A stretch of 64,000 nucleotides of DNA from Sulfurovum sp. TSL1 (GTDB lineage Bacteria; Campylobacterota; Campylobacteria; Campylobacterales; Sulfurovaceae): NCBI RefSeq assembly GCF_019972135.1, contig NZ_BPFI01000002.1, positions 186,001 through 250,000 on the forward strand. The letters are read 5' to 3'. This document shows, piece by piece, positions 21,086-23,188 of this stretch (within the stretch, counting starts at the first letter, position 1; every line of letters starts with the position of its first letter). Under the pieces are notes generated by a model. It worked only from the letters and a program-made list of their open reading frames with translations. It made no database searches and was not told the origin of the DNA. The position numbers and the translations under genes are program-made.

Positions 21086-21619
21086 CTATTTGGCTGTTTT
21101 GGAGAGTTGTGAAATGAGTTCTTCCAGTGAAGCTTCGGGGAGCATACCTGCCTGTACAAACTGTACATCTCCCTTTGTGTCCATAGCGACCAAGAAAGGG
21201 ATACTTCCCCTCCATTGTGCTCTCTGCTGAATATAGTTTACCAATTCAGGTGCTTTCTCTTCGGAGGCTACAATGTAGTTCATCCCCTTCTCTTCTGCAA
21301 ATTTTTTGACCTCTTCATGGGTATAGCCCTGCACCTCAATAGAGACAATGGCTAAGGTCTCTTTATATTTTTCTTGAAGTTTGATCAAATGTGGAATGGA
21401 AGCGAGACAAGGAGGACATTTGTGTCCGAAAAATTCTAGAAAGATGACTTTCCCTTCAAGGCCTTTAATGTTGAGCCCCTGTTCCGTACCTGATACATCA
21501 TAGGTTTTCCCCGTGATATCGGTCATGGTCATTTCTGCTAAATATCTTTTATCTTCAGCAGCGTGGGTATAGGTTACGAGTGAGAAGAGTAGAAGAGATA
21601 TCGAGAATAATTTTTTCAT
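21086..21619 (-). CDS. Periplasmic thioredoxin-like protein (TlpA/ResA family)
   Basis: This ~177-residue protein has a signal peptide (MKKLFSISLLLFSLVTYTHA) and a thioredoxin fold with CPPC active site in FFGHKCPPCLASIP near residue 70, and the cis-Pro loop GSIPFLVAMD. It likely reduces or oxidises periplasmic disulfides, for instance in cytochrome c maturation. The start is ATG 21619 because AAGGTG lies 6 nt before it; the frame extends 3 codons to GTG. A TATAAT box is at 21649-21654 on the minus strand. Confidence 0.87.
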   Translation of the reverse strand: MKKLFSISLLLFSLVTYTHAAEDKRYLAEMTMTDITGKTYDVSGTEQGLNIKGLEGKVIFLEFFGHKCPPCLASIPHLIKLQEKYKETLAIVSIEVQGYTHEEVKKFAEEKGMNYIVASEEKAPELVNYIQQRAQWRGSIPFLVAMDTKGDVQFVQAGMLPEASLEELISQLSKTAK

Positions 21620-21648
21620 AAAATGCACCTTTATAGATAATTTTACAG

Positions 21649-21654
21649 ATTATA
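21649..21654 (-). promoter_or_regulatory. -10 box of the TlpA-like gene
   Basis: On the minus strand TATAAT occurs in GTGTATAATCTG, 30 bp upstream of the ATG, with T-rich sequence before it. Confidence 0.5.
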
Positions 21655-21711
21655 CACTATGAAGATGTAAAAATCGTGTAATTGGTTCAAATTATGTAAA
21701 AGATTTTTTCA

Positions 21712-21811
21712 AAGAGCATCATAGTTGTATGTAAAAGGGGAGGGAAAAATGATTTAAAAAATAGACCTAAAAAATATTAGGGAGAGAGGTCTATCTTTTT
21801 ATGATGCTCTT
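21712..21811 (-). ncRNA. Candidate small RNA, tandem copy 1
   Basis: A long hairpin is closed by a perfect 12-bp stem, AAGAGCATCATA (21712-21723) with TATGATGCTCTT (21800-21811). Inside, ATAGACCT (21761-21768) pairs with AGGTCTAT (21787-21794). On the minus strand this inner hairpin is followed by six Ts, and a TATAAT box (21824-21829) lies 7 nt before the closing stem. The minus-strand RNA would show an unpaired CCCTCCCC-TTTTACA motif, also present in copy 2. The orientation is inferred; on the plus strand the loop would be G-rich. No protein fits here. Confidence 0.55.
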
Positions 21812-21906
21812 GTAAAAGTATTATAGTGATATAAGGTTAACTGAACACTAATAGAAGATCATATTATAGATATAGGGGGAGGTGAAAATGGATCAGGTAT
21901 TTTTCA

Positions 21907-22012
21907 AAGAGCATCTTTGGGACAGAGGAGAAAATGTTTTTAAAAGGAGTCCTAAAATACTTTGTAAAAGGGAGGGGGGAAGATTTTAGGTTTTCTGTCC
22001 CTCGATGCTCTT
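21907..22012 (-). ncRNA. Candidate small RNA, tandem copy 2
   Basis: The same architecture as copy 1 about 200 bp away: closing stem AAGAGCATC (21907-21915) with GATGCTCTT (22004-22012). Inner stems are GGGACAG/CTGTCCC (21919-21925, 21995-22001) and CCTAAAAT/ATTTTAGG (21951-21958, 21983-21990). Inner stem sequences differ from copy 1 yet still pair. On the minus strand the apical loop carries CCCCCCTCCC followed by TTTTACA. TTAACC and a -10-like TACACT lie at the same distances before the stem as in copy 1, which argues for minus-strand transcription. Confidence 0.55.
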
Positions 22013-22068
22013 GTAAGTGTAGTGTAATACATGAAGGTTAACCGTATGCAAATAAAGAGTAGTTACAC

Positions 22069-22074
22069 TATAAT
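22069..22074 (+). promoter_or_regulatory. -10 box of the GH3 (NagZ-like) gene
   Basis: TATAAT in CACTATAATAGTG lies 25 bp before the ATG at 22100; AAAGGA follows as the ribosome-binding site. Confidence 0.5.
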
Positions 22075-22099: not shown

Positions 22100-23188
22100 A
22101 TGATAAAAAAAGTTTTATTGCTGTGTCTGTTTTTAGGTACGTATACATGGGCACAAGGGTTGGCACTTGAAAAGAGAATAGGCCAAATGCTTATGGTCGG
22201 TTTTCATGGCACGCATGCATCCAAAGAGAGTCAGATATGTAAAGATATAGAAACCTATAACCTTGGAGCGGTGATTCTATTTGACTATAACCCGGTGGAT
22301 AAAACGAAACCGAAGAATATTGCCAGCAAAGAACAATTGGCCAGGCTGACCCAAGACCTGCAGGCATGCAGCAGTGACGGAAAATTACTGATCGCTGTAG
22401 ATCAAGAGGGCGGAAAGGTGCAACGACTTAAACGCAGGTACGGCTTTTACGGTCAATTCCCCAAAGCTTCTGATGTGACCAAAATGGATCAAAACAGCAT
22501 CAAAGAGACCTATACAAAAATGAGTGAGGAACTCAGCAGTGTGGGGATCAATTACGATCTTGCCCCTGTGGTAGATCTGGATATCAATAGAAAGAACCAT
22601 GTTATTCATGGCTTAGGACGTTCCTTTGGCAAAGATCCTGAAGTGGTAGCAGCGTATGCTTCTGCATTCATCGATGCCATGCACAGTCACGGTGTACTTA
22701 CCTCCATCAAGCATTTTCCCGGACACGGCTCGTCGGTTGGTGATACCCACAAAGGTTTTGTGGATGTGACGAACCTTTGGCAGGAAGTCGAACTGGAACC
22801 TTACAGACTTTTGAAAGAGAAAGCCGATACCGTTATGGTGGCCCATGTTTTTAACCAAAAGATAGATGCCACATACCCTGCAAGTCTCTCTTATAAGACG
22901 ATCACCAAGCTGTTGCGCTGGAAACTGGGCTATCATGGTGTGGTGATCACGGATGACCTTCAAATGGGTGCGATCAGTCAAAAGTATGGGTTAAAAAATA
23001 CACTCAGACTGGCGATCAATGCAGGAGATGACATCTTACTGATAGGGAACCAGCTTGATCCTAAAAAAACGGTCACTACACAGACACTGGTCGAGACCAT
23101 TAGCTCACTGGTTCAAAGCGGAGAGGTCACAGAGGAGCATATCAACAGAGCATATAAGAGAATTCAGGGATTAAAGAAGAGACTCTAG
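22100..23188 (+). CDS. Exported glycoside hydrolase family 3, beta-N-acetylhexosaminidase-like
   Basis: This ~362-residue protein has a signal peptide (MIKKVLLLCLFLGTYTWAQG) and GH3 motifs: KRIGQMLMVGFHG, AVDQEGGKVQRL, KHFPGHGSSVGDTH (the His-Asp acid/base loop of NagZ-type enzymes), and VVITDDLQMGAI with the nucleophile Asp. It probably releases GlcNAc from peptidoglycan fragments. Classical NagZ is cytoplasmic, so the signal peptide points to a periplasmic or exported version. A TTG codon precedes the chosen ATG. Confidence 0.9.
   Translation: MIKKVLLLCLFLGTYTWAQGLALEKRIGQMLMVGFHGTHASKESQICKDIETYNLGAVILFDYNPVDKTKPKNIASKEQLARLTQDLQACSSDGKLLIAVDQEGGKVQRLKRRYGFYGQFPKASDVTKMDQNSIKETYTKMSEELSSVGINYDLAPVVDLDINRKNHVIHGLGRSFGKDPEVVAAYASAFIDAMHSHGVLTSIKHFPGHGSSVGDTHKGFVDVTNLWQEVELEPYRLLKEKADTVMVAHVFNQKIDATYPASLSYKTITKLLRWKLGYHGVVITDDLQMGAISQKYGLKNTLRLAINAGDDILLIGNQLDPKKTVTTQTLVETISSLVQSGEVTEEHINRAYKRIQGLKKRL

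Follow-up and report, generated by a model that had tools for sequence, protein, structure and literature searches.

The window analysed here, a stretch of 64,000 nucleotides, comes from Sulfurovum, a genus of sulfur-oxidising bacteria of which many are marine, and it contains two tandem copies of a candidate small RNA gene on the minus strand between a TlpA-like redoxin gene and a divergent GH3 glycosidase gene. The features of the locus, in order of position, are as follows:

21086 to 21619, minus strand: TlpA-like redoxin gene (Redoxin/AhpC-TSA), lying downstream in nearly all relatives
21649 to 21654, minus strand: -10 element of the separate promoter that serves the TlpA-like gene, located downstream of copy A, in a conserved TTACACGATTnTTACAT...TATAAT arrangement
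21712 to 21811, minus strand: body of RNA copy A, bounded by the two arms of the outer stem (100 nt; 118 bits with covariance model R1)
21712 to 21720, minus strand: 3' arm of the copy A outer stem, GATGCTCTT
21803 to 21811, minus strand: 5' arm of the copy A outer stem, AAGAGCATC, partner of 21712 to 21720
21813, minus strand: likely 5' end of RNA copy A
21820 to 21825, minus strand: copy A -10 hexamer, TATAAT
21833 to 21852, minus strand: copy A promoter box, ATTAGTGTTCAGTTAACCTT, with TTA repeated at 11 bp, spanning the -35 region
21907 to 22012, minus strand: body of RNA copy B (106 nt; 109 bits with R1)
21907 to 21915, minus strand: 3' arm of the copy B outer stem, GATGCTCTT
22004 to 22012, minus strand: 5' arm of the copy B outer stem, AAGAGCATC, partner of 21907 to 21915
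22014, minus strand: likely 5' end of RNA copy B
22021 to 22026, minus strand: copy B -10 hexamer, TACACT
22034 to 22053, minus strand: copy B promoter box, ATTTGCATACGGTTAACCTT
22069 to 22074, plus strand: the GH3 gene's own TATAAT
22100 to 23188, plus strand: GH3 (NagZ-type) glycosidase gene, the divergent neighbour

Just before the GH3 start codon, several relatives (e.g. L008, L082 and L125) carry tandem GAAATTA-type 7-nt repeats (AGAAATTAGAAATTAGAAATTAGGATG), which are possibly length-variable beside the ribosome-binding site.

The first-pass annotation had described two rods of about 100 nt in this interval, and both are present, at 21712-21811 and 21907-22012, each closed by AAGAGCATC/GATGCTCTT and each with an inner stem that pairs despite differing in sequence between the copies. 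On the minus strand the fold z-scores are -6.6 for copy A and -5.0 for copy B, with none of 200 dinucleotide shuffles folding as well in either case, and the plus strand gives the weaker values of -2.6 (A) and -3.1 (B). A second calculation gave -7.2 for copy A and -5.8 for copy B. Together with homologues in 73 of the 78 Sulfurovum genomes examined, this places the rods beyond chance.

These homologues were initially found by searching the DNA of the taxonomic family and by a stem pattern search, and an alignment of 43 of them was used to build the covariance model R1. The covariance-model search of relatives that had been proposed at the outset yielded 99 copies, with E-values of 1e-8 to 1e-18 in the 73 matching Sulfurovum genomes, of which 48 have one copy, 24 have two and one has three. 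The relatives that share the locus and carry names are mostly Sulfurovum metagenome-assembled genomes. When 399 genomes were sampled evenly across the order, the RNA family was not found in 86 other genera, and those other genera in which GH3 and tlpA are arranged alike usually lack such an RNA between the two genes. The exception is another genus of the family (genome G034, locus L117), where the RNA occupies the matching syntenic position with an E-value of 3e-4 and a fold z-score of -5.5; its closing stem differs (AAGGATATCGG/CCGATATCCTT), and it keeps a TATACT -10 element as well as the CTCCTTT and TTTCCTCCTCCTTTT tracts. One pattern match lacking both promoter and motifs (L050) was set aside, as were L118 and most matches above an E-value of 0.01, which we regard as chance.

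Two further matches are of a different kind. At L115:3035-3145 (G133), a copy has shrunk to a 66-nt RNA in which the closing stem and the tracts are kept and the inner hairpin seems mostly lost. A weak match at a different locus in yet another genus (L119:2577-2708, G153) has a box-like sequence, TATAAT and CU tracts, and may be either a distant relative or a chance hit. No Rfam 15 family matches the window at its gathering score, a search of six loci at a relaxed threshold gave nothing relevant either, and we found no published description of this RNA family in the literature searched.

The stems are kept in the homologous regions of relatives, where each of the 898 cells scored for the 9-bp closing stem holds a standard pair in an alignment fitted to that stem, which favours the pair count; an alignment-free count on the match ends of 98 unique copies gives the same picture. 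At least one double (compensatory) change occurs at seven of the nine closing pairs, a result equalled by none of 500 shuffles, and slid controls collapse. Inside the closing stem, type B copies folded separately show double changes at six of the nine pairs of their inner hairpin, and type A copies have an inner stem ACCTAAAAT/ATTTTAGGT with matching changes recognised by eye and seen only in individual folds. RNAalifold applied to the first automatic alignment recovered the outer stem only in part and no inner stem, because false matches had been included and the inner stems vary in length and sequence. The fold predicted from these data is a panhandle: nearly invariant pairs form the 9-bp stem that closes it, the inner hairpin has a C-rich loop, and a long 3' single strand would bear one or two further CU-rich tracts.

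As for the strand, the mean fold z-score of 50 non-redundant copies is -4.7 for minus and -2.9 for plus, with minus the better in 48 of the 50, and the closing stem contains 15 G-U combinations and no A-C combination. This asymmetry and the z-scores identify minus as the strand that would be transcribed; the counts come from related, non-independent sequences and thus amount to strong support and not to a calibrated probability. In many copies, the complement of the 3' tract does resemble a Shine-Dalgarno sequence plus start codon (GGAGGAGGAAAAAATCTATG or GGAGGGAAAATGATG), as would suit a plus-strand element, either a small ORF or a GGA-rich RNA. We consider such an element extremely unlikely, given that the ATG is missing in 24 of the 50 non-redundant copies, that the peptides would be 1-24 aa long with no sequence in common, that CsrA is not detectable in this genome, and that the asymmetry, the z-scores and the -10 element all indicate minus. 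CsrB and RsmZ act by titrating CsrA; a plus-strand sponge of their type was set aside because CsrA is absent and the GGA motifs lie on the disfavoured strand. The rod with its asymmetric internal loop also recalls a divergent 6S RNA mimicking an open promoter, all the more as a whole-genome search with RF00013 found no other 6S RNA (the model did match in other bacteria used as controls, none of the matching ones belonging to Campylobacterota). However, the RNA is about 100 and not about 180 nt long, it has no RF00013 match itself, and its conserved CU tracts and one-sided loop are foreign to 6S, making this the least probable of the readings weighed.

It is the unpaired part of the RNA that carries the C-rich motifs. 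A CCCTCCC-type motif followed by TTTTACA had been noted in both copies, and CCCTCCC(C)TTTTACA is indeed found in each, but the TTTTACA tail is not a feature of the family (relatives have TTTTAAA, TTTTTAG and others); the conserved exposed elements are the pyrimidine tracts themselves. Two to three tracts of the CCUCC type are exposed per RNA in the predicted folds, on single strands that are otherwise free of G, and the count of pyrimidine tracts per RNA is 2.36, compared with 0.55 in shuffles. Within the CUCC-type cores, 88% of the bases are unpaired, versus 48% of the remaining inner bases, and the unpaired share is only 10% for G and 76% for C. In these models, exposure follows the pattern expected for an RNA that would hold C-rich strands open to G-rich sites.

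Each copy is preceded by the same promoter architecture. The 38-nt match described between the copies proved exact, with TTAACC, nine bases, TATAAT (A) or TACACT (B), seven bases and CAAGAGCATC aligned ungapped on the minus strand. When 50 non-redundant copies are aligned by their stems, the order is ATTAGTATTCGGTTAACCTT, a block of 20 bp, then seven positions of weak conservation, the hexamer TA[T/C/A][A/C][A/C]T (T1 in 49 of 50, A2 and T6 in all 50) and a conserved A seven bases past the hexamer, with no conservation upstream of the block. With up to one mismatch allowed, every occurrence of the block in the eight genomes tested is at an RNA promoter, and at two mismatches its matches elsewhere are no commoner than those of a control pattern. 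The 20-bp box and a TANNNT -10 element at fixed spacing make up, as judged from sequence, a dedicated promoter, predicted to be of the sigma-70 type without a -35 hexamer and with an activator-type box. From the two TTA steps 11 bp apart we infer that the activator might be of the OmpR/PhoB type.

The position of the RNA between GH3 on the other strand and the TlpA-like redoxin on the same strand recurs in nearly all genomes, and in five genomes a further copy precedes a second neighbourhood gene, c4 (presumably polysaccharide-deacetylase-like), on the strand of c4. With no intrinsic terminator found after the RNA by scan, such an arrangement is also what a cis-acting 5' leader, a riboswitch or attenuator of the TlpA-like gene, would produce. 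Against a leader, either kind of downstream gene has a conserved promoter of its own that separates its start codon from the RNA, each tandem copy has a full promoter, and no alternative terminator/anti-terminator or sequestration of a ribosome-binding site was seen; we therefore hold it to be very unlikely, although some read-through from the RNA into the gene may occur. The location upstream of the TlpA-like gene, remarked on in the first-pass annotation, is real and conserved, but that gene's own promoter lies downstream of the RNA. Because the downstream genes have promoters of their own in this position, the RNA is best seen as a putative free-standing sRNA gene and not as a leader, and a tandem pair of independent minus-strand sRNA genes with exposed C-rich motifs, as originally proposed, is supported by the covariation and comparative data.

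The promoter of the TlpA-like gene (21641-21680, minus strand) has a conserved block, TTACACGATTnTTACAT, before its TATAAT across the genus. The extra copies (L086, L082, L089, L090 and L092) are inverted and lie 3-4 kb from the main locus, flanked by what we take to be ilvC-like and polysaccharide-deacetylase-like genes, which suggests a local duplication.

Several known C/U-rich sRNAs resemble this RNA in part. LhrC1-5 of Listeria monocytogenes are multicopy RNAs of about 111-114 nt with three redundant CU-rich sites in loops and single strand, which all depend on LisRK and for which Hfq is dispensable in the regulation of lapB (PMC4132741). The Sulfurovum RNA is similar in size, in its multiple copies, in its several redundant CU-rich sites and in what would be one common regulator, but LhrC consists of stem-loops and a terminator and belongs to a different phylum, whereas the Sulfurovum RNA is a panhandle with a closing stem and no intrinsic terminator. 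In rhizobia, NfeR1 (alpha-r14) exposes several identical CCUCCUCCC anti-Shine-Dalgarno motifs per RNA while its stem sequences diverge (PMC10746234). Both traits have their likeness in Sulfurovum; the alphaproteobacterial RNA, however, forms three separate hairpins instead of one nested rod. Tandem C-rich sRNAs are also found in CcsR1-4, the 'cuckoo' RNAs of Rhodobacter, which carry a CCUCC motif. They arise from a transcript shared with a DUF1127 protein gene, from which RNase E excises them (PMC10253847), unlike the Sulfurovum copies, each of which has its own promoter and no DUF1127-type operon.

Closer in lineage are CJnc190 of Campylobacter and RepG of Helicobacter, in which a C/U-rich loop pairs with a G-rich ribosome-binding site or G-repeat in Campylobacterota that lack Hfq (PMC8687705). 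The Sulfurovum RNA has candidate C/U-rich pairing segments in an equally Hfq-less setting, but with several tracts instead of the one loop described, and we saw no relation to CJnc190 or RepG in sequence or locus. CJnc190 also differs in that it is processed by RNase III and has an antisense partner; inspection by eye showed no conserved promoter-like block for such a partner beside the 3' end of the Sulfurovum RNA except the promoter of the downstream gene. The Sulfurovum RNA would work like LhrC and NfeR1, but the tests run, which for LhrC were the Rfam searches, showed no kinship with either. The novelty lies in the RNA family and in the fold, promoter box and lineage that go with it, the way of working being already known.

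Given that CJnc190 and RepG repress G-rich mRNA sites through C/U-rich loops, that LhrC and NfeR1 function with several redundant CU-rich sites in each RNA, and that the exposed strands here are nearly G-free and kept open by stems, we take multi-site pairing in trans with Shine-Dalgarno regions as the most likely mode of action. The analysis as a whole makes it reasonably probable that the locus encodes a multi-site anti-Shine-Dalgarno-like repressor sRNA, in two tandem genes of a Sulfurovum-wide family. Each RNA of about 100 nt would be made from its own promoter under a putative activator at the 20-bp box, the stems would hold the nearly G-free strands open, and these C-rich strands would pair with purine-rich Shine-Dalgarno regions so as to block translation of several mRNAs without Hfq, with extra copies providing a higher dose or a broader target set. 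In keeping with what is generally said of Campylobacterota, Hfq is not detectable in this genome.

The pairing to Shine-Dalgarno sites that had been suggested found no backing in the target searches run, which covered parts of the genome. Among 15 genomes, extended complementarity to the 3' tract returned the RNA genes only, bar one match with three mismatches in two relatives, and window-wide duplex energies show no preference for ribosome-binding sites over coding sequence (-8.9 versus -8.9 kcal/mol). No co-evolution of the RNA with neighbouring genes was found, and direct control of the neighbours (GH3, tlpA, dprA, ruvX and others) was set aside because pairing within the own genome is hardly above that of swapped or shuffled combinations.

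A serious rival to multi-site pairing, if a rather unlikely one, is a protein-binding sponge, in which the pyrimidine tracts would titrate a KH-domain, cold-shock or S1-like RNA-binding protein and no mRNA would be paired. One short motif is repeated in loops and single strands, as is also typical of protein-binding RNAs, the gene is present in multiple copies, no mRNA target is identifiable, and the genome has a KhpA homologue. However, the exposed tracts are of the CCUCC type of proven mRNA-pairing sRNAs, two of them in Campylobacterota, there is no known partner protein, and in the case of CsrA the protein is absent and the GGA motifs are on the other strand.

Multi-site pairing by a repressor sRNA thus remains our preferred reading. 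A wider one, to which we give little credence at present, is that of a genus-wide, Hfq-independent regulator with its own dedicated activator, whose panhandle would present two to three anti-Shine-Dalgarno mimics on a long open strand and would either put a broad brake on translation or act as a sponge for a CU-binding protein. If true, this would be an RNA class with a two-level array (copies times sites) that is new to Campylobacterota. Post-transcriptional control in this phylum is known mainly from two pathogen genera and a handful of RNAs. A well-defined, covariation-supported family in almost all Sulfurovum genomes offers a free-living, chemolithotrophic model for C-rich sRNAs without Hfq. 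Its covariance model is ready for use, and its promoter box is defined sharply enough for the activator to be sought. Multi-copy, multi-site CU-rich sRNAs, seen in Firmicutes and Alphaproteobacteria, thereby gain a further case that is apparently independent.
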